Source: a virus
Reading direction: 5' to 3' (one strand)
IMG/VR virus record: IMGVR_UViG_3300046001_006965
Location: 1-64,000 of that record
DNA: 64,000 nt
Shown here: positions 203-23,546 of the stretch, piece after piece
How positions within the stretch are numbered: the stretch's first letter is position 1
Layout of the letters: the number at the start of each line of letters is the position of its first letter
Program-made: the position numbers and the translations under genes
Notes under the pieces: model-generated
The model's database searches: none
The model's input: only the letters and a program-made list of their open reading frames with translations
What the model was told of the DNA's origin: nothing

Positions 203-482
203 ACTATTTTTTTTTAAAGATTACCCACGCATAAATATTCGTTTGCCACACCCGTGTTGGCTATTGTGTGGGATAGCTTTTCAGCCATTGTAGTTCCCGT
301 GTTGTCCAATAGCACAATTGAACCCCCCAAAGCATAAGTCAGCGTAACCCCCGCCCTTGTTTTTACGCTATAATTAAATCCCAAAGCAAGACCGTTCGGT
401 AATGTCAATGTGCAACTTGCAGTCAATAAAATAACTTTGCCGTTGTAGGTATTGTCAAGCGTTGTGTTTGTGCCGATTTTTA
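1..482. repeat. Tail-tip module shared with 50983-51462 (copy 1)
   Basis: Bases 1-482 match 50983-51462 in the same orientation. The first 127 bases are identical; the rest carries scattered, largely synonymous substitutions. The module covers the start of the 128-residue accessory gene, the short intergenic gap and the last 88 codons of the fibre gene. Similarity stops abruptly near base 482, inside the fibre coding sequence, as expected for modular exchange between phage tail genes. Confidence 0.9.
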
Positions 483-1848
483 CGACTGTTATATTGGTTG
501 AGTTTTCTAAAGTTAACAATCGCGCAATCTCGGTATCTGAAAGCAAAGACTTCCCCGCAACTTTATCAACTTTATTTCCAACAACTCCTGTCAAAGCCAC
601 AATCAAATCATTCAACACTTTCACCTGTCGTGCATCCGCTACTTTTCCGGCAACGATGCAATCAAGCGCATTGTAAATATCTGTTTTGTCTACTTTTCCA
701 GCTAACAGCGAAACCAAGTCCACGCCCTCGGAATAAGTGGAGAAAACCGCCAACAATTCTGCAACGGTATTCACTAATGAATCTCCATCCGCAGTAGAAC
801 CTCCAATGATTGCTTGAACGGCAATTATCTTGTCGTTGAGTTCTTTTAGCGTGTTTGCATCAGCAGGCGCACCGCCTAAAAGTTGTGTGCCTAAAGCATC
901 TATTTCAGTTTGGGTGACTTTGGCAGCCAATGCCGCCGGTAATCCAACCACATCGGCAACGGCAACAGATGCCACCGCATTGATTCGTCCTACGTATTCC
1001 AAGACTCCAGAACTTGGATCTACAATTTTCATCGAAAACCGGATGATCTCGTTGGGGTGCAATACAAGATTTTCGGCATTTGGAAAAGAAAACTGGAATC
1101 CCAGTCCATTTAGATGAAATATGGTGATGTCGGTTGCTTGGCTATTTTTTACCAAGATTTCCTTTCCTGAATATAAAAAAGTGTTTTGGTACACCTTGCA
1201 ACTTTTCAAGTTCGTGACAGCTCCGCGAAAATTCAGATAACCATAGAAAAAATCATCTAAATAAGTGTCGTTTATTTCGCCTGTATTGTAGACTTGGAAG
1301 GGTTGTTTTTCTCGTTCTAATATGGATTTGTTGCCAAAAACCACTTCAGACGGGTTTCCAATTACAGCATCATCCACGTCAAATTCTAATATAAAAACAT
1401 TGCCTATCGGAGTTTTTGGAGCAATTCGTATAGTAGCTGACTCCTCGCCTTTCATTAGTATGATTTGATTCAACTGGTTGGCCACTAAAATATCTTTTCG
1501 GAGCATTCCAGCATCGCACAAGGTTTCGTCGGTTTCGGTTACTGCTGTCGTGGCATAATTAACGCCATCATAGATCCACGAAGTTATCTCTGTAAATAAT
1601 TTCAACCCTACAAAAGTGGTTCCTCCGCCACTCACTAACTGGCTGTATTTTTTGGCGTTGACCGCATTCACGAGTTCCTGAACTGCGATGCTCTCTGAAA
1701 TACCACCTCTGGAAACGTGTATTTTTGATGCGGGATCTAAATTAGTTTGTATTGGCAACTCGTCAATTTTCTTGGCGTTGGTACCAATGGCGTTATAAGC
1801 TGCCGTAAGACTGGCCAGTCGTTCCATTACAAGGGATTGAAAACTCAT
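214..1848 (-). CDS. Tail fibre / receptor-binding structural protein
   Basis: This 544-residue protein is probably the terminal fibre of the left prophage. It carries short heptad-like repeats of the type KVDKVAGKSLLSDTEIARL around residues 430-450, a motif often seen in fibre shafts of Bacteroidota phages, and a middle region rich in small and hydrophobic residues. The last 88 residues are identical to the last 88 of the protein at 51195-52487, although the DNA differs at synonymous sites, so the shared C-terminus looks conserved by selection. It is the first gene behind its own late promoter (1870-1877). The adhesive role is inferred from position and repeat style. Confidence 0.7.
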   Translation of the reverse strand: MSFQSLVMERLASLTAAYNAIGTNAKKIDELPIQTNLDPASKIHVSRGGISESIAVQELVNAVNAKKYSQLVSGGGTTFVGLKLFTEITSWIYDGVNYATTAVTETDETLCDAGMLRKDILVANQLNQIILMKGEESATIRIAPKTPIGNVFILEFDVDDAVIGNPSEVVFGNKSILEREKQPFQVYNTGEINDTYLDDFFYGYLNFRGAVTNLKSCKVYQNTFLYSGKEILVKNSQATDITIFHLNGLGFQFSFPNAENLVLHPNEIIRFSMKIVDPSSGVLEYVGRINAVASVAVADVVGLPAALAAKVTQTEIDALGTQLLGGAPADANTLKELNDKIIAVQAIIGGSTADGDSLVNTVAELLAVFSTYSEGVDLVSLLAGKVDKTDIYNALDCIVAGKVADARQVKVLNDLIVALTGVVGNKVDKVAGKSLLSDTEIARLLTLENSTNITVVKIGTNTTLDNTYNGKVILLTASCTLTLPNGLALGFNYSVKTRAGVTLTYALGGSIVLLDNTGTTMAEKLSHTIANTGVANEYLCVGNL

Positions 1849-1869: not shown

Positions 1870-1913
1870 CAAATGTAATAAATAATATTGTTATTTAGAA
1901 TCATTCTAAATAA
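1870..1913 (-). promoter_or_regulatory. Late promoter P1 with 23-bp palindrome
   Basis: On the minus strand a -7 box TACATTTG lies at 1870-1877, ahead of the fibre gene. No TTG stands about 21 nt upstream; that position is occupied by a perfect palindrome, TTATTTAGAAT / C / ATTCTAAATAA, at 1891-1913. The same palindrome with nearly the same spacing precedes the scaffold gene at 16538-16582. A missing -33 element replaced by a palindrome suggests an activator-dependent late promoter; repression is the alternative. Confidence 0.7.
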
Positions 1914-1928
1914 GAAAAACGCAAATAG

Positions 1929-1953
1929 TTTAGAATCATTTATTGTAACTTTG
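1929..1953 (+). promoter_or_regulatory. Leaderless plus-strand promoter for the moron cassette
   Basis: The -7 box TAACTTTG lies at 1946-1953, and the ATG of the first cassette gene begins 5 nt after it (1959), so the transcript should begin at or next to the start codon. Just upstream is a half-copy of the late palindrome, TTTAGAATCATTTA (1929-1942). This divergent promoter may therefore see the same regulator as the late promoter at 1870. Confidence 0.6.
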
Positions 1954-1958
1954 TGATT

Positions 1959-2189
1959 ATGGCACTATTACTGTTTTTCGTGATATTATTCGTCGTCTTT
2001 GTTGGCGGTGGCTGGCTTATTGGCAAGTCTTTTGGCAACGCTTTGTTTCCTGGAGAAAAAGAAGAAAAAACCACTTTTATCAATAACATTACGCACGTTC
2101 ATTATCACGAGCACAAGAATATTTCGATTATTGATGAAGAAACGAAGAAGAAAATATTTGAATTAAAGGAAAATAAGGATGGGAAGTAA
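1959..2189 (+). CDS. Small N-terminally anchored membrane protein, moron cassette gene 1
   Basis: A 76-residue protein starting MALLLFFVILFVVFVGGGW, a single N-terminal membrane segment with a glycine-rich stretch, then a charged, histidine-containing cytoplasmic tail. I chose the ATG at 1959 rather than the GTG at 1953 because the GTG overlaps the -7 box. Gene 2 begins inside its 3' end (ATG at 2179), so the two are translationally coupled. It is oriented against the surrounding late genes, typical of a phage moron expressed in the lysogen. Function is unknown; a host-envelope or superinfection-exclusion role is a guess. Confidence 0.7.
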   Translation: MALLLFFVILFVVFVGGGWLIGKSFGNALFPGEKEEKTTFINNITHVHYHEHKNISIIDEETKKKIFELKENKDGK

Positions 2190-2442
2190 ATTGACAGCAA
2201 AAAAAATTTCTGAAATATGTGTTTTTAAAATAAAATCAGAATTATCAAAAAAGAAAGCAGAATCGGTTTGCTCAAGTACATTTACACTATTCATTTCGGA
2301 GTTGCCGTTTGACTTTTGTATTTCCGAATTTGTAAATGATCTTAAATCAAATTTTAATTCGGCTGAAATATCATATTATGAAGATTATCCTGTATATAAA
2401 TTTTGTGTAAACATCATTAAATACACGCATTCATTAAACTAA
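2179..2442 (+). CDS. Hypothetical protein, moron cassette gene 2
   Basis: An 87-residue, lysine- and serine-rich soluble protein with five cysteines spread along its length and no recognisable motif. It starts 11 bases before the end of gene 1 and ends 3 bases before gene 3. I do not recognise the family. Its coupling to a membrane protein suggests it works with that partner, which is inference. Confidence 0.6.
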   Translation: MGSKLTAKKISEICVFKIKSELSKKKAESVCSSTFTLFISELPFDFCISEFVNDLKSNFNSAEISYYEDYPVYKFCVNIIKYTHSLN

Positions 2443-2445
2443 AAA

Positions 2446-2823
2446 ATGAAAAAAAATAACTACTTCGCTGTTCACAAGAACAAAAAGCCAAAGCGTAAAC
2501 TGGAAGCCATAAACTGGAAACCTATTTATGCTGCGATTTCAAAAGCAACTGAATTAGTTAAAAGTTTGGTTGACCTTAAAAAAGCAATGTATGATTTACA
2601 AATGGTTAGAATTTGTTCAGAATTGAAAAAAGAACCTGCCATTGTTGGAACTGATTATCAACCGGAAATGATAATGAATTCATTTCAACGAAATCCTATT
2701 GCGGGAGTTGCTGTTGAGGAATTTAAAGTGCCAATATCTGATTTAAGCGATTTAAGCGATCATTATTTGGATAAATTAAGAATGAATCAACCAATTTCAA
2801 ATTTAGATTATTTTAAAAAATGA
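2446..2823 (+). CDS. Hypothetical protein, moron cassette gene 3
   Basis: A 125-residue protein with a very basic N-terminus (many Lys/Arg in the first 30 residues), a central helical stretch around residues 35-60 and a tandem 9-bp repeat encoding SDLSDLSD near residue 100. No known domain is recognised. It lies 3 bases after gene 2 and overlaps gene 4 through ATGA. The basic N-terminus could bind nucleic acid, but nothing proves that. Confidence 0.6.
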   Translation: MKKNNYFAVHKNKKPKRKLEAINWKPIYAAISKATELVKSLVDLKKAMYDLQMVRICSELKKEPAIVGTDYQPEMIMNSFQRNPIAGVAVEEFKVPISDLSDLSDHYLDKLRMNQPISNLDYFKK

Positions 2824-2969
2824 AAAAACCACATCTTGATCAATGGCAAAGAAGAATGATCATTGAAAATTATGGGATTTCAGGACCTCTTTTCAATCTA
2901 AATCTTCAATTAAAAATATTTATTAGAAATATTGAAAAAAGCCTCCAATTAAGGAAGCTTTCAAGTTGA
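2820..2969 (+). CDS. Small hypothetical protein, moron cassette gene 4
   Basis: A 49-residue ORF starting MKKPHLDQWQ whose ATG overlaps the stop of gene 3 (ATGA), strong evidence of translational coupling. It is basic, with a central hydrophobic and aromatic stretch. Its 3' end holds an imperfect hairpin (AAAGCcTCC / GGaaGCTTT, 2938-2962) without a clear T run, which could end the cassette. It converges on the tail gene ending at 3026. Confidence 0.5.
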   Translation: MKKPHLDQWQRRMIIENYGISGPLFNLNLQLKIFIRNIEKSLQLRKLSS

Positions 2970-3025
2970 TTTCTCATTCGAGTAAAACAAATCTAAAAAC
3001 GGATAGCCTTGAAGTTTTTTGTTTT

Positions 3026-5047
3026 TTAATAACTCACGAATCCAGTATCTGTACTGATTAATCCTGGTACCTCAACGGCCGAACCGTCAAAATCCAGACT
3101 TCCGCTTGATTTGCTGGTATAAACGCTTCCGGTTTTTATCATCGTGGCCGTCAAAACATAAAGATTTGAACGTTCCAACGGTCCTTCAGTATTGAAATTG
3201 CCGTTTTTTACATAGCCAACTCCATTGATTGTGACGTTTTCGTGTGACAAGGCCAAAACCATTTTTCGCCAAATCTCCTTGGTTACCGGCTCAAACACAA
3301 TTTCGTCCACTTCGTAAACATCGGCATTCAGCAAGATGGAATTTGTGTCGGTTTTGTGTACCTCGCTATCTTCATCCGACTTTCCTTTGAAATAGGTGTA
3401 AGGTAAACGAATTATATTTTCTATTCCAGTTGCATAAAAAATGTCCGTATTGCTTGAATTGCTGTATTTGATTTCCAACACATTTTCGTGTTTCACCTTG
3501 CACCAAATCATTTCGCTTAAATGAATAATCTCGGTGAAATTATCATCGGTATTGTTTATTCTTACCTGAAAATACTGATCAATATAATTGACCATATCAA
3601 TGTCAAATTCGTAAACCTCATAATTGAAACGCTTGAACATAGCAGCCACGATAACGGCAACATCGGCACCGGTGTACACATTGGAAAATGACAACACATC
3701 GGCATTTTTGGCTTCGTCATAGAACGTATCTTCTATCAGGAACCAAGAAGATCCTATCTTGAAATAATTACCGGCAACCGCCCATTCCGGCAATGCACCG
3801 TTTAACAGATAGGTTCCGTTAACCACACCGGTTACATAATCGTAACTGTTTCCTGACCTGAAGTACAATCCTGTTTTACCGTTACCCAAATCGTATTGAA
3901 ACGCATCGCGTTTGTCTTTTATTCCAATATTGTTTGATTTTTTGGTTACCGGAACATTGACTTCAGATAAATCAGATTTAATGATCGTGGCTACATTGTT
4001 TTTGTAGTTCGACTTGAATTGCGTGGTGATCACATCGGCTGATTGAAACTGCTGGATTTCGGTGTATGGAATTTCACAATCGACTTCGTGACTCAAGGTG
4101 TTTTCGTCTGTTTTATAGTTGGCAGAATCTCCCCAGACAATCCGATTTGCGAAACGGATTGAATTTGATTTTGAAATGTAGAAGTAAGGCGTATAGACCC
4201 CGAATTCCGTTACTGAAAAACCTTTTGAAACAGAACACCCTAATTGGTCTTTTATGTAAATCGTATAATTTCCAACTTCCAAACCACTAAAAACAGATGA
4301 AGTTTGCCAAGTAACATTGTCTAATGAATATTGCAATATCAACCCTTCGCTATTCACGTTTGAAATATTTAGCGTTCCACCGTCTGGTGAATTAACCACG
4401 TCAAAATTGAAGTTGGCAATGTTTAAAAACTTAGGCAAATTAAGAGCAATTGACGTTTGTACTCCTAATGCGTTTTCAACCGTTAAAGTGTTATTTTGGT
4501 CTCTTAACCAATCAAACGAAAAAGGATTTTCGGTATTGCCGTAAACGGTGAAAGGCGGCAAAATAGTTGTTGCCAGTTCCGATGTGGTCACGTTTACTTT
4601 TACTTGTTGGCAAGGATTTGCATCGGCTTGCGAAAATGAAATAGTATCAATTGTAAAAGATGGTGCCACTACCTCGTTTTCGATATTTACATCAACAAAA
4701 GCATTGCTCGTGCCCGTGAAAACTGCCCCCGAAAAGTTGGCTTCTATAGTCACAAATCCAACTCCTGAATTTATCGGACCGTTCAAAGTAGTCAAAGTAA
4801 ATAGACCTGTCGAATTATAATCTAAATTGAAAGCGTTTTTGTAATTTACGTTTACAAAACCAAAATACCGATCAGGATGTATGCCATCGTCAGGAGAAAA
4901 AACGGGAAGAGAAACCTGTCTTGTTGCCAATCGAGACTCCTTGAAAGTTTCAAATAGTGATATCCCTAACGATGTTTCTCCGATACTTAAAGTTTCGTTT
5001 ATATCTGGAACTGCTATAAATTCGAGTGTTATTTTAGAATATGCCAT
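3026..5047 (-). CDS. Large tail-tip structural protein
   Basis: A 673-residue protein rich in beta-prone, Ig-like sequence. Its middle (about residues 200-290) resembles bacterial repeat domains with Asn/Gly turns and a 'YTIYIKDQLGCS' type strand, often seen in Bacteroidota surface proteins. It follows the 736-residue tail protein by 5 bases and precedes the moron cassette. Position after the tape measure implies a distal tail or host-contact role. I recognise no enzymatic motif; the exact tail component cannot be named from sequence. Confidence 0.6.
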   Translation of the reverse strand: MAYSKITLEFIAVPDINETLSIGETSLGISLFETFKESRLATRQVSLPVFSPDDGIHPDRYFGFVNVNYKNAFNLDYNSTGLFTLTTLNGPINSGVGFVTIEANFSGAVFTGTSNAFVDVNIENEVVAPSFTIDTISFSQADANPCQQVKVNVTTSELATTILPPFTVYGNTENPFSFDWLRDQNNTLTVENALGVQTSIALNLPKFLNIANFNFDVVNSPDGGTLNISNVNSEGLILQYSLDNVTWQTSSVFSGLEVGNYTIYIKDQLGCSVSKGFSVTEFGVYTPYFYISKSNSIRFANRIVWGDSANYKTDENTLSHEVDCEIPYTEIQQFQSADVITTQFKSNYKNNVATIIKSDLSEVNVPVTKKSNNIGIKDKRDAFQYDLGNGKTGLYFRSGNSYDYVTGVVNGTYLLNGALPEWAVAGNYFKIGSSWFLIEDTFYDEAKNADVLSFSNVYTGADVAVIVAAMFKRFNYEVYEFDIDMVNYIDQYFQVRINNTDDNFTEIIHLSEMIWCKVKHENVLEIKYSNSSNTDIFYATGIENIIRLPYTYFKGKSDEDSEVHKTDTNSILLNADVYEVDEIVFEPVTKEIWRKMVLALSHENVTINGVGYVKNGNFNTEGPLERSNLYVLTATMIKTGSVYTSKSSGSLDFDGSAVEVPGLISTDTGFVSY

Positions 5048-5052
5048 AGTTT

Positions 5053-7263
5053 TTATCTGTTAGATTTTAATAATTTCCATTGTCCTTTCCCATTTGGTTT
5101 AAGGTTAAAAAGGAATCCCTTTTCTTTTTCGTTGTCCTCGTTGATGAATTCAACCAGACCATAAAAGTTTTTGATTTCTTTTCCTGCAATGATGGTGGTT
5201 CCTTCAACTTGTTTCAATACGTCAAACGAACATTTCGCTTCAAATTCTATCCATTCAGGGAAGAACCTGGCCGTTGCCAACTCCGAGTTAATGATGTTGC
5301 CGTTTTCGGAATATTCGTTTTTGCCAATCAATTTTGTTTTTAATTGGCTGTTGGCCGTTGAACTTCCATAACGAACATAATCCGTGATATACTTTTTGAA
5401 ACCGCCACCAAACCACCAACTATGACGAAGCAAACAATTGACAGGCGAAAATCTTAAATTTGTGGCGCTGTCTGGATTGAAAACTCCGGTGGGTTGCATC
5501 TCCATATCATCCTGCCATTTGCGTTGCTCAAATATTCCGGATGCACCTCTTTTCAAGTCCATTATAAAATTGTCATTGTCATAAGGCGTGTCTTCTGTGC
5601 TATTCACTGTTTTCTGTTTCCGTCTGGCAAATTCAGGACCGTAATTATCAGTTCTGTATTTTGATATTTTTGAATACGTTCCCTTCAATCTGTTGATGAT
5701 GGTGGTAAACGTTGATTTTGTATTGTATTCGTCCAATCCCATTGCTTCTTCATAAGTACCTCCTTTTTCACTGCCAAATTCCAATGATGAATAATAGTAT
5801 TCCGTGGCTACGGAACGCTTCACTTTTTTCACTTGATTTGGCAAACGAATGGTCACGTTGTAGTTGTAGAAATAGGATAGTTCTTCCAACCTTACACGTT
5901 CTTTGTTTCCGACTATTTCAATTCCTATTCCAATGTTCCAAATGGCATCCAATGAAGTAACGGCATCTTTGAATGATGTGGTCAATGGCTTGAATAGATT
6001 CTCCACTTTTGGAACTTGCGTTGGTATTGGAAATTTGTCAAATTGTCTAATCCAAAAACCGTGCGTTACTCCGGTCAATGCGCCTGGACCATCAATTGTA
6101 TAACCTAAATCGGTTCTGCCCAAGAAGTCAGAATAGAACGCCTTTTCCTTGCCGGTGGCAATAGTGACCAATCGATCCATTAATTCGTGAGCCAAAATAG
6201 CCTTGGTTGTTGACTTTTCAAAAAACGAATCTTCTTCAACAAACAAAGTTCCCTTGATGTTGGTTAAATCAATAGCCAGTTTTGCGTGAATGCTCACCTT
6301 AAAATCAACGTGCTGCCATGCTTCAATTGCCAAACTTTGTCCGGCTTCTAGCTCAACGGTGGCATCATAGCTTACAGAATAAGTATTTCCATTTCCGGCA
6401 TTCATCGCGCTAATGTTTGCCATTGTAAACAAAGGAATGCGTGTTGGCGTATCGTAAGAGATTCCATTTTTGAAAGTCGTCAAACTGATTTTAAAACTGG
6501 CTGTTTGAATTTTCTCCTGAGCAATGATGAACTTGAATGTAAAATTAGTCTTAATGTGAAGTATTCTCTTTCTGTCAGAAACAGCAAAAAACATCATCCC
6601 GGTTGTACCTGTTGATTCATTGGCCGTGTTGCCGCTCAATACATCCTGAACCTGTTCATGCGATTTATTCACGATTTCAAAAGGCAAGCCAACGGTTTGG
6701 TTTCTGGTGTTTCCCGCATTCGATTCATTGTACATAGAAACTTCATTGTCAGTTTCTTTTGTCTCTAATTGCGATTTCAGAAAAATTCTTCTCCCATCCA
6801 AAGCCACGGTTATCGGCTCTATTTCCGGTATTGTTTTGCCGTCTATTGTCGTGGTTCTGTCAATTTCCACGCTTTCGGATTCTCGGGCTTTCAAAACTTG
6901 CTCAATACCTCCAGAGTTAAATTTGATGGCAATTTTATTATTCTCCGTTTCCTTTGTCGAAAGGTCAAGATTTCCGGAATAACCCAATTGCCAGACGTCA
7001 GTTTTCGGATGCTTTTCTTCTCTTTTGAGCTGAATATCTGCATTTATGCCCTCAACATCATCAACTAATTTGATAAAATCCTTTCCGCTTCCGATAAACT
7101 TAGAAGAGTTGGAAAACCTTGAAATAATGCCGTGATATTGTTCGTGACGTGCCAATTCTTTTTCGTCACTTTTCCAGCCTATCGGCTCTTCGATTACCAA
7201 AGAGCCCTGACTTTTATTAAACAATGTGTATCGAACACGGTCGAAGTAAGTTAGATTTCCCAT
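5053..7263 (-). CDS. Tail protein downstream of the tape measure (distal tail/hub candidate)
   Basis: A 736-residue protein starting MGNLTYFDRVRYTLFNKS. Its ATG overlaps the tape-measure stop (TAATG), so expression is coupled. Long beta-rich stretches and the absence of transmembrane segments fit a virion component. The gene immediately after the tape measure in siphoviruses normally encodes the distal tail protein or hub, and that is the basis for the call. The length is larger than a simple distal tail protein, so a fused hub is possible. Confidence 0.6.
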   Translation of the reverse strand: MGNLTYFDRVRYTLFNKSQGSLVIEEPIGWKSDEKELARHEQYHGIISRFSNSSKFIGSGKDFIKLVDDVEGINADIQLKREEKHPKTDVWQLGYSGNLDLSTKETENNKIAIKFNSGGIEQVLKARESESVEIDRTTTIDGKTIPEIEPITVALDGRRIFLKSQLETKETDNEVSMYNESNAGNTRNQTVGLPFEIVNKSHEQVQDVLSGNTANESTGTTGMMFFAVSDRKRILHIKTNFTFKFIIAQEKIQTASFKISLTTFKNGISYDTPTRIPLFTMANISAMNAGNGNTYSVSYDATVELEAGQSLAIEAWQHVDFKVSIHAKLAIDLTNIKGTLFVEEDSFFEKSTTKAILAHELMDRLVTIATGKEKAFYSDFLGRTDLGYTIDGPGALTGVTHGFWIRQFDKFPIPTQVPKVENLFKPLTTSFKDAVTSLDAIWNIGIGIEIVGNKERVRLEELSYFYNYNVTIRLPNQVKKVKRSVATEYYYSSLEFGSEKGGTYEEAMGLDEYNTKSTFTTIINRLKGTYSKISKYRTDNYGPEFARRKQKTVNSTEDTPYDNDNFIMDLKRGASGIFEQRKWQDDMEMQPTGVFNPDSATNLRFSPVNCLLRHSWWFGGGFKKYITDYVRYGSSTANSQLKTKLIGKNEYSENGNIINSELATARFFPEWIEFEAKCSFDVLKQVEGTTIIAGKEIKNFYGLVEFINEDNEKEKGFLFNLKPNGKGQWKLLKSNR

Positions 7264-10200
7264 TAGTTTTTGCTCCAGTTAGTGTTACCCATTTTCCATA
7301 AATGGTGATTAATATCAAGTTTCGGCATATTGATAACAGAACCGTTTTTCTGTCTTTTCAAGACTGAAAGCGTTTCTTTCATCACATCAAGAGATTCTTT
7401 TCCGTACAAATCATTGTTTTGCATCAACTGAAAATCGTTCATTTTACGGCCTTCAATTTGGAAACCCGACAAAATGGAAGCTCTCATATAAGCCTGATAA
7501 TCTGCCATCGATTTATGCACGATGTCGCCTTGGTTCAGATGGGTAAGAGTTGGAATGTTTGGCGTTAATCTTGCGTTTGCTCCACTTGCAGAAGTAATTA
7601 CCTCGTGAACAAAACCATCACCAACTTCGGCAATTTCTGCCGGTCCGCCTTTTCTACCCATTTTGTATTTCGGGATTGGGGTTGCGATAATTGCCCCGAT
7701 TTGAATTGCACCAAGAACACCGGCCAATATCGCCATTGCCGGACCCATTGGAAGGAATGGCTGTGTACTCAAAGCGGCCAAAACCGCTAAGGCAGTACTT
7801 ATTCCAGCTTGTGCAATTGCAGAAGCTTTATTAAAAACGGCTGCTTTGTGTTGCTCCTTACGTTTCTTTTTTTCTAATTCATCATTCTTTTTTTCACGCT
7901 CTTTTTGTAGCAAGTCTTTTTGGCGTTCATCGTTTCCGGCCAACTCCATTTGCATATCATAGAATTCGTTATTTTTGTCGATTTCTTCCTGAATATTTTG
8001 GATTTTCCTTTCGAAAACAGCATTTCCAAGATCTGTCAAAGCTCCAGTTAAAGCAGATGACATTTCGAGTATCTTTTCAGTTTTTTCCCTTTCGGTCATT
8101 ACCTCTTTTTCAGAAGTATTTTTGCTGGTGCTCACCTCAACTTCTGACAAATCAAGTTTTACCTTGCTTAATGTTTCAGCTATTTTCTGTCTTTTGTCTG
8201 CTGATATTTGTTCGTTTGCCGGAAGCAAATCATTGGCAGCTAATTCTGCTTCAAGATTGGCAATTTGAAGCTTCAATGTTTTTATAGCATAGGCTTTCTT
8301 AATTTCAAAAATCTTTCTTTCGTGATCTTCTATTGCCTGTTCTCGATCGGCTTGTGCCATTGCCTCCAAATCTCCCAATGTTGCAAACTTTTCATTTTCG
8401 GCTTGCAATTCTGCATTCATTTCAACATTTAGTTTGGAAACTTTATCTTCTAATTGCTTTTGATATGCCGCTTCATCAAACTGGTTTATTTTCAAAATAT
8501 CTTCAGCTGTTTTTTTCTTGATGTCGATGATTTTGTTTTCGGCTTCAGTCACGATAACCACTTTTTGATTTGCGTTCATTCGGTCTTTAGCCAACACGAA
8601 TTTGTCCGCATCCAAAGCGTGTTTCTCGTTTAGTTTGGCCAGATCAATTTCTTTCGTTTGAACCAACTCCAATGCCTTGATTCTAACCTCATCACTCAAT
8701 TTGTCGTCTGCTGCAATTTCGCCATTGATTTTAATCGAGCGTTCCAAACGTTGTTTTTGCAATTCATACAAAGAATCTGAAAGCTTTTTGGCTCTGTCCA
8801 AAGCTTCTTTTGCTGCTTTTTCGGCTGCTCCGTTATCTGCTTTTGGAACTGTCGGATCTGTTGGGTCCACTACCTTTTTGGCCGTTCTTTGTTGAATAAA
8901 TCCTTGAACCGTTTTATTTTCAGCACCGGCAAAAACAGTTTTATTGTTTAATGCTGCAATTTTTCTTTGATTGTCTTCAATTTGTTTCTTTCTTTTACCA
9001 CTATTGAAGAAGGAATCATCAGCAGCTATTTTTTTATTTATCTTTTCTAACTCTAAAGCTGCTCTGGTATTTTCGGCAATTTCTGCATTGTTCCAAGCAA
9101 CTACATTTTGCAAATCTTCCAGACTTCTTTTGTTCTTGTCGGCATAGTTTTTTATAGCACTGTCGGCTCCTTCTTTTCTTATGCCGGCAAGCTCTCTTTC
9201 TCTTTTTTGTGCGCTGGTAGTGAACCAATCATCAAGCATTGATAAAGTATCAATTGCATCATTTACCCAGAACTTTAAAAAGTTACCACCCGCATTCCCT
9301 TTTTCCGAAAGACTTAACACAAAACTTCCCCAGGCACTTTCCAATAAATCCATTGAACCGGTTAAGGTATCCATTCTTATTTTCGCCTGTTCTGTTGCTG
9401 TTCCGTTCTCGTTCATTTTAGAAGTCAGTTCCTTCAAACGGTCTGTATGTCCCAAAACATTCATTGCCGCTGTTGCATTTTCCAAACCAAAAATCTTGAC
9501 AATAGAAGCATTGTCTTTCATCAACGGTTTCAACATTTCTAATTTTTGCTGAATAGGAATTGATTTGTCTTTCAATGTTTCCAATGAAATACCCAACTTG
9601 GCAAATTCTTCTTGTGCTTTTTTAGGCAAGGCATCCGGAGCACTGATTTTCAACAATACATTCCTCAATGCGGTTCCAGCATCAGCTCCTTTTAGGCCAT
9701 TTTCTGCCAATAACTCCACCAATGCCGTACTTTCTTGTATACTTACATTTGAAGTACGGGCAACCGCACCAAATTTCAATAAGGCTTCGGTAACTTGCGG
9801 GATTTCTGCAGCTCCATATTTGGCACCATTGGCCAAGGCATCCACAAAAACGGTCGCTTGACTTGCATCAGCCCCAAATTGGTTCATCGCATCGGTCAAG
9901 GCAATTGCAGCGTCCGGCATTTCCATTCCTGATGCTTGTGCCAATGTCAAAACAGCTTCGGTTACTTGATTTAAAGCAGAAACGTTTTCTAATAATTCAG
10001 GTTTGGCAGACGCTATTAATTTGTATGCTTCAACTACTGCAACCGCACCGCCTTTTGTTCCTTTTCCTAACTCAATGGCTTGGTTTTTCAGGTATTCTAA
10101 ATCTTTACCCGTTGCACCTGTTATTGCGCTCAAATCTGCCACTCCTTGTTCAAACTTTTTAATCGTATCAAAAGCATTTTTCATTATCGAAGCAAACAAA

Positions 10201-10892
10201 GCAATTCCTCCCAAAACACCGAAAGCCCCCATAAGGTTTCTAATACCATCGGCCATTTTGGTAATCTTTGGATAATTACCAACTGATTTATGGAAATCAC
10301 CAACGGCTTGGTCTGCTTTACGAACACGAACATCCAATCTTCCAAACTCCTTTTCGGCCTTTTTAATAGCCTCGGTATTTTGATTTTCGGCACTTAATAA
10401 ATCAAGTAAATTTCTTTTGGCAATGGTGCGTTGCAGGTTCAATTTAGTGTAAGCAGTGGTCATTTTGCTGGACAAAATGGCCTGTTCTTTTGCTATTCTA
10501 TTATTCTGCTCATTGGCCAAACGTTCCTCGACTGATAGCTTTATATTTGATTTAGTTGCAGCATTTTTTTTGGCTGCAATATCCAAGGCCAGCTTCTCCG
10601 TTTTTAACTTTTCCTGTGTTATTTTCTGTAATTTAGTTTCTTCAACTTGCTCTTCTTTTATCAAAGAAATTGCTTTTTCAGAAATTAGCTTTACTTCGTT
10701 TTTTTGCTTGATGAACTCGGTTTGGTTTTCGCTTCGACGAAGTTTTACGTTTTCAGCATTCAGCAAAATAATGGTATCGACAAATTCTCTATTTATACCA
10801 ACTGCGCCTTCCATTATTTTCCTATATTCATCACCCCAACGCAAAGCATCGTCGGTAATAATATCTTTTCTGGTTATTGTACCTTCTGCCAT
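7263..10892 (-). CDS. Tail tape measure protein, TP901 family (left prophage)
   Basis: A 1209-residue tape measure that would set tail length and line the tail tube. The N-terminal 200 residues are coiled coil. The TP901 core lies at about residues 240-430, with the characteristic stretch 'GVADLSAITGATGKDLEYL' followed by alanine-rich helices. Residues 600-1010 are again long charged coiled coil, and a hydrophobic segment rich in Ala/Ile/Leu lies near residues 1030-1080, as in other tape measures that reach the host membrane. It is almost twice as long as the right prophage's tape measure, implying a longer tail. It overlaps its neighbours at both ends. Confidence 0.93.
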   Translation of the reverse strand: MAEGTITRKDIITDDALRWGDEYRKIMEGAVGINREFVDTIILLNAENVKLRRSENQTEFIKQKNEVKLISEKAISLIKEEQVEETKLQKITQEKLKTEKLALDIAAKKNAATKSNIKLSVEERLANEQNNRIAKEQAILSSKMTTAYTKLNLQRTIAKRNLLDLLSAENQNTEAIKKAEKEFGRLDVRVRKADQAVGDFHKSVGNYPKITKMADGIRNLMGAFGVLGGIALFASIMKNAFDTIKKFEQGVADLSAITGATGKDLEYLKNQAIELGKGTKGGAVAVVEAYKLIASAKPELLENVSALNQVTEAVLTLAQASGMEMPDAAIALTDAMNQFGADASQATVFVDALANGAKYGAAEIPQVTEALLKFGAVARTSNVSIQESTALVELLAENGLKGADAGTALRNVLLKISAPDALPKKAQEEFAKLGISLETLKDKSIPIQQKLEMLKPLMKDNASIVKIFGLENATAAMNVLGHTDRLKELTSKMNENGTATEQAKIRMDTLTGSMDLLESAWGSFVLSLSEKGNAGGNFLKFWVNDAIDTLSMLDDWFTTSAQKRERELAGIRKEGADSAIKNYADKNKRSLEDLQNVVAWNNAEIAENTRAALELEKINKKIAADDSFFNSGKRKKQIEDNQRKIAALNNKTVFAGAENKTVQGFIQQRTAKKVVDPTDPTVPKADNGAAEKAAKEALDRAKKLSDSLYELQKQRLERSIKINGEIAADDKLSDEVRIKALELVQTKEIDLAKLNEKHALDADKFVLAKDRMNANQKVVIVTEAENKIIDIKKKTAEDILKINQFDEAAYQKQLEDKVSKLNVEMNAELQAENEKFATLGDLEAMAQADREQAIEDHERKIFEIKKAYAIKTLKLQIANLEAELAANDLLPANEQISADKRQKIAETLSKVKLDLSEVEVSTSKNTSEKEVMTEREKTEKILEMSSALTGALTDLGNAVFERKIQNIQEEIDKNNEFYDMQMELAGNDERQKDLLQKEREKKNDELEKKKRKEQHKAAVFNKASAIAQAGISTALAVLAALSTQPFLPMGPAMAILAGVLGAIQIGAIIATPIPKYKMGRKGGPAEIAEVGDGFVHEVITSASGANARLTPNIPTLTHLNQGDIVHKSMADYQAYMRASILSGFQIEGRKMNDFQLMQNNDLYGKESLDVMKETLSVLKRQKNGSVINMPKLDINHHLWKMGNTNWSKN

Positions 10893-11479
10893 TATTTCTT
10901 GTTTTTAGCGTTTTGTTTTTCGATCGATGCAATTTTTTGTTTCACTTGGATTTCTAAGGATTTGAATTTCTCTACTGATACGGTGTAATAGTCATAATCA
11001 TAACCCAAAACAGAAGAGTAACTGGCCATTAGATTGATGATGGAATTATCTTTGTTTTCCGATTTTGACTCGTCAATTTTTGGAAGCCCCTGTTTGAGTA
11101 GGTTAATTTTCTGGACTATTCCCTTGCTTTCTCGTTCTACACGTTCCAAATCTTCATTGTAAAATTCATCCCTGAACCTGTATCCATAATCGCGAAGTAT
11201 CGCAATCAACTCGGGATAAACATCAAATTTCAAGGCTTCGATGATCAACTTTATTTCGAAGTATTTTTTATCCAGGTATTCGATTTCTTTTTCAAGATTG
11301 AATACTTTGTTGCTGTTCTGCTTGTTGTATTTTTGCTGGTATTCTTCGAACAATTCATTCCAGATGGTAAGTAATTCATCAAGATCAGTTTCTTCATCTG
11401 AAAGCAATGAAATATCGCCAGATTCCATTATTTCGGTAAAGGTTACCATTGGTAATTTTCGGAGCGTTTTGTAAATCAT
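10892..11479 (-). CDS. Putative tail assembly chaperone (left prophage)
   Basis: A 195-residue, acidic, helical protein placed directly upstream of and touching the tape measure gene, where tail assembly chaperones are encoded. It contains a long coiled-coil-like stretch at about residues 55-75 and ends in a lysine/asparagine-rich tail. I see no obvious second overlapping frame. The ATG overlaps the upstream gene's stop. Identity rests on position and size. Confidence 0.5.
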   Translation of the reverse strand: MIYKTLRKLPMVTFTEIMESGDISLLSDEETDLDELLTIWNELFEEYQQKYNKQNSNKVFNLEKEIEYLDKKYFEIKLIIEALKFDVYPELIAILRDYGYRFRDEFYNEDLERVERESKGIVQKINLLKQGLPKIDESKSENKDNSIINLMASYSSVLGYDYDYYTVSVEKFKSLEIQVKQKIASIEKQNAKNKK

Positions 11480-11925
11480 AATCCTATTTTTTGACGGTTG
11501 TTTTTCAATACAAATGGTAGAATTTTGGTATCAATAACATCTTTAAGGTTTTCGGATGTGAGTCCAAAAAGGCTGTGAGAAAGCCAATGTTTGCTGCTTA
11601 GAATATCATCGGTTTTGGGATCAGTAGAACCAAAGAAAAATATATTGTCAAGAACCGTTACATACCAACTATCCAACCATTTTCCTGTATCCTTTCCGGT
11701 GAAAGGTGTGCCCCATTCTTTTTCGCCATTTGTCAATATATCGGTTGCCTTGGAATAGAAACCAATTGCCTTTCCGTAAATATCCTGGCTGTCCTGATTG
11801 ATTTGTTTTTTGTTTAGTTCCACCATATACTCGCTTACGGTTTTGATGAACAGAAACAAGTCTCTGGCAATGATTTCAGAGGTTATGCTTTTCGAACGTT
11901 CTAATTGTTGATTGAATGTGGCCAT
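11476..11925 (-). CDS. Tail/neck protein, HK97 gp10-like candidate
   Basis: A 149-residue protein starting MATFNQQLERSKS. I chose the ATG at 11925 because a strong terminator hairpin (11934-11974) lies just upstream, which would be inside a longer reading. It carries 'WGTPFTGKDTGKWLDSW' near residues 70-86; a PF...DTG pattern recurs in phage minor tail and head-tail joining proteins of this phylum. It is overlapped by the next gene. Function is inferred. Confidence 0.5.
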   Translation of the reverse strand: MATFNQQLERSKSITSEIIARDLFLFIKTVSEYMVELNKKQINQDSQDIYGKAIGFYSKATDILTNGEKEWGTPFTGKDTGKWLDSWYVTVLDNIFFFGSTDPKTDDILSSKHWLSHSLFGLTSENLKDVIDTKILPFVLKNNRQKIGL

Positions 11926-11933
11926 ATTTTGTA

Positions 11934-11974
11934 TAAAAAAAGAGGCTAAACCATTGGATGATTTTAGCCTCTTG
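11934..11974 (-). terminator. Intrinsic terminator between tail tube and tail assembly genes
   Basis: On the minus strand a stem AAGAGGCTAAA pairs with TTTAGCCTCTT around a 12-nt loop and is followed by a run of T (complement of A 11934-11941). It lies between the 62-residue gene (11999-12187) and the next tail gene. It should reduce transcription into the tape measure relative to capsid and tube genes, matching the lower dose needed. Confidence 0.85.
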
Positions 11975-11998
11975 TTCAATAAATTGATCTCAATTTTT

Positions 11999-12187
11999 CT
12001 ACTGGTTCACTTCTATTTCTGCCGTTTTCTTGGTGGCAATCTTAAAAGCTTTTTTCAGTTCTAAAAGTCTTTCTTTTTCTGGAATTCCCTTGAATACCCA
12101 AGTGTTTTCGAACTCTGTTTTGAACTGATCAAACGTCCTACTGTAATTATCTTCAAACGTTATGCCTTTGTATTTGGCGCGTGGCAT
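11999..12187 (-). CDS. Small hypothetical protein after the tail tube
   Basis: A 62-residue basic protein (MPRAKYKGITFEDNY...) 3 bases after the major tail protein and just before an intrinsic terminator. It is therefore the last gene of the highly expressed capsid/tube block. No family is recognised. A small tail or assembly role is inferred from position only. Confidence 0.55.
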   Translation of the reverse strand: MPRAKYKGITFEDNYSRTFDQFKTEFENTWVFKGIPEKERLLELKKAFKIATKKTAEIEVNQ

Positions 12188-12190
12188 TTA

Positions 12191-13054
12191 TTAAACAGTT
12201 ATGGAAACTGCACCGGCACTTTCGTAAGTTGCTTCAGTCTGAATAACAACACCGTTTAAGTTGACAACGTTTCCAGTTACAAATCCTGTTCCTGTCAATT
12301 CATAAACACCGTTAGCATCGGCAGCCACAAATGAATGTGTCACGGCAACACCGGCAGCGGTTTTGAATGTTACATCAACAGTATCCAATGAAGTTACCGG
12401 ATCAAGTGCATCACCTGATAAAACCTTGAATTTAACTGAAGTTGCTGAAGAACTTTCAACCACTATTTTAGCATCGAAAATACCGTTCACTTCGATATGG
12501 CTCCAAGTTGGTTTGATGATTACAGCGTTTTTAGTTCCTTCGTTTTTATCTGCATAAATTAAAGAAACCGGAGTATGAGCTGGTTTGTCCGGCATTGCAT
12601 CCACACGCATTCCTACCTCAACCGTTACTTTTTGCCCTTTTACTTTTACGCCGTCAGGAGTAGTTCCCTTAACTTCTTGTGCATCGGTAAATTCATAAAC
12701 GCGCATCGTTTTTCCATGGTAGGATTCCAACGCATTATGAGAATTTACACCAATCATGCAAATAAAATTCCTGATTTTTTTAGGTTTCTTGGTCAAGTAT
12801 TTGCTGTTTCCTTCAAAATAGGCGGCGGCTAGATCAGCATTGGCCAATTCTTCCAACTCAAAAAGAGGAATTATTTTCTTTAAATCTACATCAGCCTTCC
12901 AATTGGCTAATGTTTTAGCAGCTTCTGCCGTGGCAAATTCCTGCTCATCAGTGGCTAATGCGTGGCGAATAGTAACTCCTTCTAGGAATTGATCGCTGGC
13001 ACCAGTGTTTTTATTGCCTTCACCTACTATGGTGAAATCGATTATTGTACTCAT
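12191..13054 (-). CDS. Major tail (tube) protein with C-terminal Ig-like domain
   Basis: A 287-residue protein. The N-terminal ~190 residues would form the tail tube subunit. Residues from about 195 to the end ('DAKIVVESSSATSVKFKVLS...') are Ser/Thr/Val-rich with short strands and look like an added Ig-like or BIG2-type decoration domain, common on siphovirus major tail proteins. Order (head connectors, this gene, terminator, chaperone, tape measure) supports the call. Confidence 0.75.
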   Translation of the reverse strand: MSTIIDFTIVGEGNKNTGASDQFLEGVTIRHALATDEQEFATAEAAKTLANWKADVDLKKIIPLFELEELANADLAAAYFEGNSKYLTKKPKKIRNFICMIGVNSHNALESYHGKTMRVYEFTDAQEVKGTTPDGVKVKGQKVTVEVGMRVDAMPDKPAHTPVSLIYADKNEGTKNAVIIKPTWSHIEVNGIFDAKIVVESSSATSVKFKVLSGDALDPVTSLDTVDVTFKTAAGVAVTHSFVAADANGVYELTGTGFVTGNVVNLNGVVIQTEATYESAGAVSITV

Positions 13055-13067
13055 GGTTTCTTTTTTA

Positions 13068-13598
13068 TTAGTTACAATTAAATGTGTATTTCAAATCTCC
13101 ATTTATCGAAAAGGTGTGATAAGGTTGCAAATCATTCAATTTGATGTTCTCAATGTTGAAGTCTTTCAGCACGTTTTTCAATCCTTTTTCAATTCCGGTG
13201 ACCTCTAATGCTTTTATTTTTTCGACTAGCTTCACGCATATATCCTGAACTTCTGAATCTGCTCTGTAGGTTGTATTGGCAAAACATTTGTTTAAATTCA
13301 ACATAAAAACAATCTTTACCTTTGCCGTGAACAACTTTCCTTCTTTGCTTATATGATTGTCATCATCAACAAAGAAAACATTTCCTCCAGGTGCGTTACG
13401 GTCATCATAAAAAACGCCTTTGCGTTCCTTGTTCGAAACGTGAACCTCCGGAACAAATGATTTTCCATCCTTGGCCAGTACTTTCTGAACCCTTCCATAA
13501 AAATCAACACCTACAAATCCCAAATGCAAGTTCAATGCATTCTGAATGAGTTGTATTTTGTGGTCAATTCCTTTGGCCGGATAGTTGTTGTAGTTCAT
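13068..13598 (-). CDS. Head-tail joining / tail terminator candidate
   Basis: A 176-residue protein between the connector gene (one base downstream of its stop) and the major tail gene. In siphoviruses this slot holds the head-tail stopper or tail terminator. It has a mixed alpha/beta composition and no membrane segment. I recognise no family with confidence; the assignment rests on gene order. Confidence 0.5.
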   Translation of the reverse strand: MNYNNYPAKGIDHKIQLIQNALNLHLGFVGVDFYGRVQKVLAKDGKSFVPEVHVSNKERKGVFYDDRNAPGGNVFFVDDDNHISKEGKLFTAKVKIVFMLNLNKCFANTTYRADSEVQDICVKLVEKIKALEVTGIEKGLKNVLKDFNIENIKLNDLQPYHTFSINGDLKYTFNCN

Positions 13599-13599
13599 A

Positions 13600-14181
13600 T
13601 TACCAGGGTTTGCCGTTTTTAACGGTTGGATTTCGTGGAAAGAGTATGTTTTGCGTTTTGGTGATCGCTGATTTCAGTTCGTATTTAATACCGGTGGCTA
13701 CATAAAAACCCCCATCGTTTCGAACACCTTCCAATTCAATTTTAAGGTTTTGGAAACTCAATTTGGCGTTACGTTCCAAAAGATTGTTTCTGCTGGATGA
13801 AATGAACAATTCCAACATTTTTACCGCGATACAATACCCAATGGCATCATCGAACAATCTTGGTTTTGCAATGATCAAAGCCGAATAATCAGTTTCTTCT
13901 ACATACATTTCGCTTTTGTCGAAAATGGCAGTCAAGACCTCCAACACCGATTGCTGACGAACAGAAGAAAGGAAGCCGTTGAAATCTACGGCCTCCATAT
14001 CTATTTCTGGAACTGCTGCATAAACATTTTCAACTGTAACGAGTTGGTGAAAAGAATTTACTTTTCTTGCTGAATCTGCGGTTAGAACCTCCTCATCTAA
14101 CTCGATTGCAAATGCAGTGTCTAAAGGTTTCTCCCAACCAATTCTAGTGTTTAATGATGTTATGCTTTGTCCGTTGTACAT
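13600..14181 (-). CDS. Head-tail connector candidate
   Basis: A 193-residue, largely helical protein immediately after the major capsid gene (one base apart), the usual place for the head-completion adaptor (gp6/gp15-like). It includes a run of hydrophobic helix around residues 110-130 and ends with a beta-rich segment. The function is inferred from order and size. Confidence 0.55.
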   Translation of the reverse strand: MYNGQSITSLNTRIGWEKPLDTAFAIELDEEVLTADSARKVNSFHQLVTVENVYAAVPEIDMEAVDFNGFLSSVRQQSVLEVLTAIFDKSEMYVEETDYSALIIAKPRLFDDAIGYCIAVKMLELFISSSRNNLLERNAKLSFQNLKIELEGVRNDGGFYVATGIKYELKSAITKTQNILFPRNPTVKNGKPW

Positions 14182-14182
14182 A

Positions 14183-15463
14183 TTATACTGATGCTACGAT
14201 GTTAGCTTCGAATACCAATATAGCTTCTTCAGACAATTTATTGATTGCTGTAAGTAAAGCGGCATCGGTTGAAGCGACAGTCAATTTAGTTGCTGGATAA
14301 GCCAATTTCAAGGCAGATGCAACAGATGCTTTAGTGTAAGAAACTGTTTCATACAAGAAGTTTGCATCACCCTCTGTTTGAACATCGGCAGCGGCTTCTT
14401 CAGTGTTTAGATAAAACAAAGACTCTACATTTTGAAGTACAGGAATAACAAGAGCTTCTGCCGCGGTTCTTTCGCTTACAGGATCTGTTGTACCATCTTT
14501 TTTAACTAAAATATAGCTGTTTGGTTCAGCATAAATAACACCCTCTTGTTTGTAGATTGATTCGGCTAATTTGCTATAAACCAATGCTCCAACCTTAACA
14601 CCTGATGTGAAAACAACCATGTTTGGAGTCCATCCTTTAGAAGTTGTTCTTTTTCCATCTTTTTCGTGATAAAAAGTACGGTCAACAATTCTTAAGTTAA
14701 GCTTAAAGTTTCTTTTTAGAACATCTCTAACCTGATCTTCACTAAGCGAAGGCACGTTTGTTCCAACAAAGTTTAAGCTAAAAGCAAATAGCTGTTTTAC
14801 TTGATCATTGTTTAAGATGTTATCAAGAATATCGCTATCCATCCATATCGTATCAGGATATTCGCCTTTTGATTTTGCATCTTTTAAAACTCTTTTTATG
14901 TCATCTATTGGCGTAGACGTAGGAGAGCTCCATTTGATAACTGATCCAAATTGGTTTGATAATGGAATGTTGTAGTTTATACGAATTCCAGTTCCAACAT
15001 TTAAAGCATCTTCAATCAAAGTGATGCCGCCTGAAAATCCTAACAAGTGAGCTTGTTCAATCTTTTCTTTGATACCATAAATAACGGATTCAGTATCGTT
15101 GAAAATCTTTTTGATAAACTCACCAATTCTTCCGGCTTTATTACTTAAATTAATTAAAGTATTCATTTGTTTTTCATTCAAAACATACTTTATTGCCATC
15201 TTAGGAATGTCTCCAGTTGCTGTTTTTAAAGAGCCTCTGCTTTTAATAGGCGCTGGAGAATCAAACGCAACAACATCTGCAGTCACTCTAGTGAAATTAC
15301 CGCTAATGGAAGCGTAGGTCATGTCATCTGAGTATTCCTCATCTAACATTTCGTCGTGTAGATATTTAGGCTCTTCTTTTGAACCGTTTATCTTTGCGTA
15401 AAAATATTTTGCAGTTGCTGGAAAATATTTAGTTACTAAATCTTGAAAAATTGACTTTGCCAT
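14183..15463 (-). CDS. Major capsid protein (left prophage), phage cap E-like
   Basis: A 426-residue capsid subunit. The region around residues 205-310 with 'DTIWMDSDILDNILNN' and later 'GWTPNMVVFTSGVKVGALVYS' matches the general pattern of the GpE-type major capsid family, where a conserved P-x-x-x-hhh...G stretch precedes the C-terminal A domain. It sits between a decoration-like protein and connectors, in the order decoration-capsid-connector. It is not similar in sequence to the capsid at 63238-64000, which shows two phages are present. Confidence 0.8.
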   Translation of the reverse strand: MAKSIFQDLVTKYFPATAKYFYAKINGSKEEPKYLHDEMLDEEYSDDMTYASISGNFTRVTADVVAFDSPAPIKSRGSLKTATGDIPKMAIKYVLNEKQMNTLINLSNKAGRIGEFIKKIFNDTESVIYGIKEKIEQAHLLGFSGGITLIEDALNVGTGIRINYNIPLSNQFGSVIKWSSPTSTPIDDIKRVLKDAKSKGEYPDTIWMDSDILDNILNNDQVKQLFAFSLNFVGTNVPSLSEDQVRDVLKRNFKLNLRIVDRTFYHEKDGKRTTSKGWTPNMVVFTSGVKVGALVYSKLAESIYKQEGVIYAEPNSYILVKKDGTTDPVSERTAAEALVIPVLQNVESLFYLNTEEAAADVQTEGDANFLYETVSYTKASVASALKLAYPATKLTVASTDAALLTAINKLSEEAILVFEANIVASV

Positions 15464-15464
15464 C

Positions 15465-15839
15465 TTAGTCTACTTGATTATGAATGCCTAAAAGTTTTAA
15501 TGCAGCAATTGAATTGGCATTAAAAGGATATTTAGTAGCATTGCTGTTAATAGTTCCTTGTGTCATCATACCTGTTGAAGGTTTTGATTTTTTAGTAGTA
15601 GAACGTACCACGCCTACCAACTTAGCGTATAAAGAGCCATCAACTGGTTGAGGCTTGTACACTGGAGCTTCGGCCGTACCGTCATTGATTATTCCGTGAC
15701 CGTTATAAATAACGTCGTCTGGAAAACCAGTGGTATCTAGTACTAAACCTCCCTCTTTACCGTGAATGTAGTGCTTGATTGCGGTATCATAACCGCCTTC
15801 AAACTCTTCTTCTGTTTTGCTTAAATCTAATGTCGCCAT
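15465..15839 (-). CDS. Head decoration-like protein
   Basis: A 124-residue, glycine- and serine-rich protein directly upstream of the major capsid gene, one base from it. Phages with GpE-type capsids often place a lambda gpD-like decoration protein here. It contains 'VDGSLYAKLVGVVRSTTKKSKPSTGMMTQG', consistent with a small beta-barrel. Role inferred from composition and context. Confidence 0.6.
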   Translation of the reverse strand: MATLDLSKTEEEFEGGYDTAIKHYIHGKEGGLVLDTTGFPDDVIYNGHGIINDGTAEAPVYKPQPVDGSLYAKLVGVVRSTTKKSKPSTGMMTQGTINSNATKYPFNANSIAALKLLGIHNQVD

Positions 15840-15868
15840 CGCTTTTTTTTTTAGATTATTAATTGTTA

Positions 15869-16504
15869 TTATTCATAAATCTTTTTGATGTCTTCAAGTG
15901 TAGGATCTCCTTTAGGTAATCCCATACCTGCGCCACCACCATAAACACTATTATCGGCATTTACTTGAACTAATTCAGAGTATTCAGATTCTAATTCTTT
16001 GATTTGATCCTCGATTGGAGTTTCAGAATTAACATCTACTCTGCTAACCCAACGGTCTTTTAATTCAGGTTTCAACCCTTTCAGGATGTCTGATTTTTCG
16101 AAAGACTGCAAGGCAGTTTGTTTTTTAGTTTGAAGTACGTTCCCAGATTCGATTGCCGTTACTTTTTCAAGCAATGCTTTGTTTGCTTCAACTAATCCTT
16201 TAGCCCATTCTGGAACATCTACTGGAGGTGTTGGCAGTTTTGGATCTTCCGGTGCTGGAGGGATGATAACTTTACCCGCTTTTTCCTCTAATGTTCTGAT
16301 TCTGTCGTCCTCACGGGCGATTTCTTCAAAAGCGTTAAAGTCGTTAGCTTGATTTAAAATTACATCTACAGCTGTGTCGTCTGCATCGTCTGCTGGCATT
16401 GGTGCAAGTTTAGCCGCGATTGCGTCTAGCCTTTTTTGAGATAAGTTCGCCTTTGGGAATAATGCCCTAAGTCGTGCCTTAATAATTTCTGGTTTAACTG
16501 CCAT
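15869..16504 (-). CDS. Capsid scaffold protein candidate
   Basis: A 211-residue acidic, helical protein starting MAVKPEIIKARLRALFP. I took the ATG at 16504 because the longer reading would run upstream of the late promoter at 16538-16545. Residues 55-105 are proline- and alanine-rich, followed by a charged coiled-coil-like segment and a glycine-rich stretch (GGGAGMGLP) near the end. As first gene of the capsid operon with no enzymatic motif, a scaffold is the best fit; no protease motif is visible. Confidence 0.6.
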   Translation of the reverse strand: MAVKPEIIKARLRALFPKANLSQKRLDAIAAKLAPMPADDADDTAVDVILNQANDFNAFEEIAREDDRIRTLEEKAGKVIIPPAPEDPKLPTPPVDVPEWAKGLVEANKALLEKVTAIESGNVLQTKKQTALQSFEKSDILKGLKPELKDRWVSRVDVNSETPIEDQIKELESEYSELVQVNADNSVYGGGAGMGLPKGDPTLEDIKKIYE

Positions 16505-16537
16505 AATAAAATGATTTAAATTGTTGATTTGTAATGA

Positions 16538-16582
16538 CAAATGTAATAAAATAATTCTCTTATTTAGAATCATTCTAAATAA
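16538..16582 (-). promoter_or_regulatory. Late promoter P2 with 23-bp palindrome
   Basis: The minus-strand -7 box TACATTTG lies at 16538-16545 and the palindrome TTATTTAGAAT / C / ATTCTAAATAA at 16560-16582, identical to the one at 1891-1913. The palindrome centre is 26 bases from the box (25 at P1), and no TTG stands at the -33 position. It follows directly on the terminator at 16596-16628, so it starts the capsid and tail transcript. Confidence 0.75.
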
Positions 16583-16877: not shown

Positions 16878-16930
16878 AATTTATATATTTTGATGTTCCC
16901 TACTCGTTAGCTTTTCGGGTTCCGCTTTTT

Positions 16931-22152: not shown

Positions 22153-22383
22153 TTATGCACGTTTTAAAATTTGTAATGGTTTATTCAATCCTAATGAAAT
22201 AATCTTCATATCTCTGGCTTTGGCCGCTTCTCTATCATCATCAAAGCAACCACATAAATAAGTGATGCCTTTGTCTAATACTGTTGAAATCCATTTTGAA
22301 GCATCCCTATTCCAGCGAACGCCAACGTATTTCGAAACCCGATTGTTTGAAGTTCTGCCTTCTTTGATAAATTTTGTAGCCAT
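22153..22383 (-). CDS. AP2-domain DNA-binding protein
   Basis: A 76-residue protein consisting of one AP2/ERF-like domain: 'SKYVGVRWNRDASKWISTV' gives the three-strand sheet with Val-Gly-Val-Arg/Trp, then 'CGCFDDDREAAKARDMKII' gives the packing helix. Such domains occur in phage homing endonucleases and as stand-alone DNA binders. No nuclease domain is attached. It may regulate nearby genes or be the remnant of a homing enzyme. Confidence 0.8.
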   Translation of the reverse strand: MATKFIKEGRTSNNRVSKYVGVRWNRDASKWISTVLDKGITYLCGCFDDDREAAKARDMKIISLGLNKPLQILKRA

Positions 22384-23530: not shown

Positions 23531-23546
23531 AATTAGTTAAAAAAAG

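Follow-up and report, generated by a model that had tools for sequence, protein, structure and literature searches.

Identical Fur-type boxes at the fibre and capsid-operon promoters of a temperate phage: a candidate paired element for late-gene control

The window analysed here is the whole stretch of 64,000 nucleotides taken from IMG/VR record IMGVR_UViG_3300046001_006965, which is 82,969 bases long. It contains an integrase-type prophage of Bacteroidota (phage 1) in which the promoters of the fibre gene and of the capsid operon carry the same palindrome. The relevant features are:

214..1848, minus strand: putative tail fibre gene, served by the first promoter; the label is that of the original prediction, the gene has no PHROG match and homologues in relatives are equally placed
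1870..1877, minus strand: -7 box (sigma-A) of the fibre promoter, TACATTTG; consensus TAnnTTTG (PMC9723704)
1891..1913, no strand: Fur-type box of the fibre promoter, a perfect 23-bp palindrome with its centre at 1902
1931..1947, plus strand: partial box copy, 9 bases from the TAACTTTG of the divergent gene
1953..2189, plus strand: divergent gene for a small membrane protein of 78 aa, kept beside the fibre promoter of relatives
14183..15463, minus strand: major head protein (phrog_29, 1.9e-34)
15869..16504, minus strand: first gene of the capsid operon, 211 aa (phrog_5824), kept in all relatives
16538..16545, minus strand: -7 box of the capsid-operon promoter, TACATTTG
16560..16582, no strand: Fur-type box of the capsid-operon promoter, the same 23-bp palindrome with its centre at 16571
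22383..22553, minus strand: gene for a 56-aa protein (MIEIxNGRVFxxGKET) upstream of terminase, present in every long-box phage
43516..43890, plus strand: CI-like HTH repressor gene; in relatives a third box lies at the repressor start

The palindrome, TTATTTAGAAT-C-ATTCTAAATAA, is perfect and identical at both promoters, and these are its only perfect copies in the record. Shuffled sequence gave no match with up to three mismatches allowed (expectation 0). On the minus strand each copy is followed by TACATTTG (1877-1870 and 16545-16538); from the two centres, the distance to the -7 box is 25 bases at the fibre promoter and 26 bases at the capsid-operon promoter. TTG is absent from the region 19-27 bases upstream of the -7 box at both promoters. 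The original prediction had claimed identical palindromes, a spacing of 25-26 bases and the lack of TTG at -33, and all three hold on measurement; the interval 1870-16582 to which it referred is two separate sites and not a single feature. TAnnTTTG is placed at -12 to -5 (PMC9723704). With this placement the palindrome centres lie at about -37 and -38 and cover the place of the -33 element; the commonest spacing in the family, 24 bases, puts the box centre at about -36.

A third partial copy had also been proposed, at 1929-1942 in the divergent promoter. It exists at about 1931-1947 as TTTAGAATCATTTATTG, with five mismatches to the 17-bp core. Elsewhere it is found only in degenerate form in one close relative; consequently it is not a conserved site and was rejected as a real one.

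Several other features of the record were observed. An Rfam DUF805b RNA motif lies at 16897-16928 (minus strand), just upstream of the 76-aa gene that precedes the capsid promoter. Two tRNA genes, one of them for Met, are located at 22797-23044 (minus strand) between the early genes and the terminase region. Four early or middle promoter regions (23490-23534, 26054-26098, 32102-32146 and 39881-39925) have another operator in common, AATAACATAT...ATATGTTATT, which TAnnTTTG adjoins in some of them; it is probably the site of another regulator. Beside phage 1 the record holds a second, Mu-like prophage with genes for a transposase, a DNA transposition protein and a tail sheath (window 46647-64000, continued in L003, record 63001-82969). 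About 500 bases are common to these two unrelated prophages (1-494 and 50983-51475, 88-90% identity); the match covers the end of the phage 1 fibre gene and has the appearance of a recent exchange of a fibre module.

The sequence of the palindrome resembles a known operator. Riemerella anatipestifer has the predicted Fur box ATTTAGAATTATTCTAAAT, and promoters with Fur boxes were studied by EMSA (PMC5609570). The 19-bp core of the palindrome, ATTTAGAAT-N-ATTCTAAAT, is the same as this box except at the central base; in the Fur regulon of this member of the Flavobacteriia, the box lies upstream of iron and haem genes. A scan of 85,000 species genomes located the exact 23-mer on genome contigs in at least 119 stretches; most of these are from Bacteroidota, and a few are from Streptococcus and others. 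Genes adjoining the 23-mer among the matches listed include TonB receptors, fur itself, hemA (haem) and cytochrome genes. Across 81 Flavobacterium genomes, matches to the 19-mer with no more than one mismatch outnumber those to the reversed-pattern control about tenfold, and they are located at hemA, cytochrome and TonB genes. The match of the core to the Riemerella box and the location at iron and haem genes together identify the palindrome, at the level of sequence, as a Fur-family operator, namely the Bacteroidota Fur box.

The motif is thus not confined to phages. It had been stated beforehand that a host operator found widely in the chromosome would speak against a late-gene activator site; the motif is indeed a Bacteroidota Fur box, but few Flavobacteriaceae chromosomes have the perfect 23-mer (three of 151 genomes, one of the three being a prophage) and the spacing is specific to phages. 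Chromosomal sites have other spacings to a -7 box (9, 16-18 or none), and the phage boxes share neither this spacing nor the chromosomal context. In contrast to the Flavobacteriia Fur regulon, they lie at two structural operons and take up the position of the -33 element, with 23-26 bases to the -7 box. When up to one mismatch is allowed, Flavobacterium sp. 1355 has no sites other than the two of its long-class prophage; host Fur may therefore prefer other sequences there.

The original prediction had suggested a search for the palindrome upstream of late genes in flavophage genomes. In related phages it was found at the same two operons with fixed spacing. In capsid relatives it lies about 1.15 kb upstream of the capsid gene and 23-26 bases from a -7 box, and whole-genome comparison shows that the twin layout of capsid operon and fibre gene is kept in long-class phages. 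Of 91 dereplicated viral sites at which a -7 box lies within the scanned range of 17-31 bases, 53 have a distance of 23-26 bases (p=2e-10 against a uniform distribution). TTG at -33 is missing in 36 of 37 late promoters; since only about six would have it by chance on a rough estimate, this shortage is suggestive and not strong. Riemerella phages with distant capsids have no boxes. Several late promoters thus have an operator at their -35/-33 position, with the spacing fixed, and the sequence comparisons support the two sites as a paired late-gene control element. The earlier proposal of a late-gene activator site stands as far as the conserved pair, the fixed spacing and the absent -33 TTG are concerned, all of which look like such a site; activation itself is only inferred.

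A second, short operator class is found in some relatives. It consists of TTATTTAG-N-CTAAATAA or close variants, with two half-sites and one base between them, and occurs at both promoters of G001, G019, G022 and G023. A scan for it gave 45 stretches; a prophage in the genome G075 has two perfect copies, separated by 14.8 kb. Its spacing to the -7 box is looser (16-27 bases). Each phage has one class at both promoters: long in 12, short in four, degenerate in two and mixed in none. By capsid, G001 is the nearest relative of the window phage (78%), yet it has the short class; the class therefore does not simply follow the capsid gene. Symmetric double changes occur in single boxes (GAAC-G-GTTC at the G021 fibre promoter, TTATTAAG-T-CTTAATAA at the G001 capsid promoter) and point to binding as a dyad. 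The short class shows no enrichment over control in Flavobacterium chromosomes and was rejected as a host-wide Flavobacterium operator.

In several relatives a third box is associated with the lysogeny switch. It lies 11-20 bases upstream of the start of a CI-like repressor in G001, G007, G012 and G022 (one or two mismatches), before another small gene in G004, and on the early side of the switch in G010 and G023. The repressor gene of the window phage has no such box with fewer than six mismatches.

Which protein binds the boxes was addressed by comparing gene content. Sensitive HMMs detected no Fur domain in the window phage, and the same is true of most long-class phages; host Fur is therefore the default binder. 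The original prediction had named a small early HTH or AP2 protein as the regulator. This was not upheld: the AP2-like gene is present in few relatives, and there is no HTH gene that every long-class phage has. Neither the AP2-like gene (22153-22383) nor other small early genes are conserved across the long class as a universal regulator would be. The small HTH gene at 28754-28960 was rejected because it is present in only two of 20 relatives searched (a clear homologue in G026 and a weak match in G021). The c58 family (21580-21837) occurs mainly in long-class phages, and its link to Fur is no better than chance (E 0.13). The search of the window phage thus gave no cognate activator gene. All 13 long-box phages share just two non-structural genes, those for the 56-aa protein, which is acidic, and the 78-aa membrane protein.

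Proteins of the Fur family are encoded by some of the relatives. A search of 42 phage records with Pfam FUR gave nothing above the cut-off and one weak match, in the long-class phage G025; a further weak match, in G021, is a false lead, being the HTH of a LexA-type repressor. The G025 protein has a short conserved N-terminal piece joined to a Fur-type winged helix, and the same fusion is found in G019, G023 and the G075 prophage. Relatives of the 56-aa gene share this arrangement: they occupy one genome place and have a conserved 35-aa N-terminus with interchangeable C-termini (a Fur-type winged helix, other domains or short tails). Other short-class phages encode unfused mini-Furs of 76, 110 and 151 aa. 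Several mini-Fur genes lie 60-600 bases upstream of a short-class late promoter; in L448, which was found by the protein alone, the promoter downstream of the mini-Fur gene has a short-class box. Not every short-class phage has a mini-Fur.

One HMM retrieves the mini-Furs together with true cellular Fur proteins. The L424 mini-Fur has the DNA-binding winged helix of PF01475 above the Pfam cut-off (23.9 bits against 23.1), and the other mini-Furs fall below it. A mini-Fur structure predicted by AlphaFold has a pLDDT of 92.5, and its top PDB matches in Foldseek are Fur, Mur and PerR (best E 1.2e-3, probability 1.00, TM 0.78). The mini-Furs correspond to the winged-helix DNA-binding half of the Fur family; unlike cellular members, all of them (76-151 aa, matching profile positions 2-61 of 121) lack the C-terminal dimerisation and metal-binding half. 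No PHROGs family matches them. Since no Fur domain was detectable in the window phage or in most of the long class, the mini-Fur link does not reach the window.

An explanation that stands at about an even chance is that the late promoters are run by a Fur-type protein which recruits RNA polymerase, the binder in the window phage being host Fur or a Fur paralogue. The Fur-type box would take the place of the -33 element at the capsid-operon and fibre promoters, and the bound DNA-binding protein would most likely act as an activator; recruitment of RNA polymerase at both boxes would switch on both late operons together. For the window phage, we infer host Fur (or a paralogue) as the most likely binder, activation over repression, and dependence on iron. 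Several relatives, mostly of the short class, encode such a DNA-binding domain themselves, minus the metal-sensing half, and would use it instead. Where the third box lies at the CI start, the same protein would shut down the lysogeny gene. The lack of enrichment of the short class in Flavobacterium counts against this explanation, as a host regulator would not account for it.

Fur is usually a repressor, and a site centred near -36 could equally well serve one. It is accordingly conceivable, at a low probability, that host Fur represses the late promoters in the iron-replete lysogen, and that they are freed when phage replication, or iron starvation, titrates or unloads Fur. There is a precedent in the stx1 promoter of Stx1 phages: its Fur site lies between -35 and -10, and expression occurs at low iron (PMC10042803). 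For a titration trap, phage boxes would have to beat every chromosomal site, as they do in the one host checked (Flavobacterium sp. 1355), and the long-class phages have no late activator gene in common. However, 36 of the 37 promoters have no -33 TTG and so look weak unaided, a repressor would not require nearly so fixed a spacing, and repression of both CI and the late genes would give conflicting signals.

It is just as improbable that a phage-encoded activator too diverged to recognise, such as a mini-Fur remnant or the 28754-28960 HTH protein, binds the boxes; the likeness to the Fur box would then reflect shared ancestry of the DNA-binding domain, with host Fur uninvolved. The Fur-type domains of relatives, one of them in the long-class G025, favour this, and the presence of the same class at two loci in each phage suggests a co-evolving phage regulator. 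Against it, the sensitive HMMs found no such domain in the window phage, and the HTH candidate is as restricted among relatives as described above, with no HTH gene in all long-class phages. A perfect, duplicated inverted repeat might also be a neutral or structural element (hairpin, terminator or recombination site) near promoters by chance, which is very improbable given its place before the -7 box, the distinct terminator-like hairpin upstream, the fixed spacing, the symmetric double changes, and its retention at the same two genes in diverged phages.

Activation by a Fur-type protein would resemble known systems in part. T4 MotA, Mu C and P2 Ogr are phage activators with a site that replaces or overlaps the -35 element. 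They likewise have an operator at the -35 position of several phage promoters with fixed spacing; here the operator and the relatives' protein belong to the Fur family, and no MotA, C or Ogr homologue is present among the proteins scanned. The stx1 promoter, where host Fur represses a gene of the prophage late region, is similar in having a host Fur site in a prophage promoter. It differs in that only a toxin gene is controlled, from an otherwise normal promoter; here capsid and fibre operons are involved, the -33 element is replaced, and relatives have a CI box. Iron can also trigger prophage induction through SOS (PMC6173762). In the open-licence literature, neither a Fur box at a late operon of a phage nor a Fur DNA-binding domain encoded by a phage was found.

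The closest isolated phages by capsid (36% identity) are Nekkelsvirus (Assiduviridae), represented by Cellulophaga phage Nekkels_1. This phage has two late promoters with degenerate short-class boxes and no perfect box. It also encodes a 70-aa winged-helix-like protein near the terminase genes (Nekkels1_19, L444:6466-6678), which is not a clear Fur domain; it is a candidate regulator in a culturable system.

Late-gene switching is little described in most Bacteroidota phages. Two operator sequences, their exact position, a phage family that includes a cultured near relative, and a family of candidate proteins make the question directly testable. A wider scheme, put forward tentatively, is that host Fur, reporting iron status, acts as late activator and CI repressor in a widespread family of Bacteroidota temperate phages; some members may have acquired the DNA-binding part of Fur and lost its metal-sensing part, which would free late transcription from iron, and the operator class would have changed in step. 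The layout, together with the stripped-down Fur-like protein of relatives, suggests a new way to switch on virion genes. If host Fur binds, phages of this family would couple the production of virions to cellular iron; if a mini-Fur binds, it would represent a phage late regulator of a new class, with a metal sensor as its origin.
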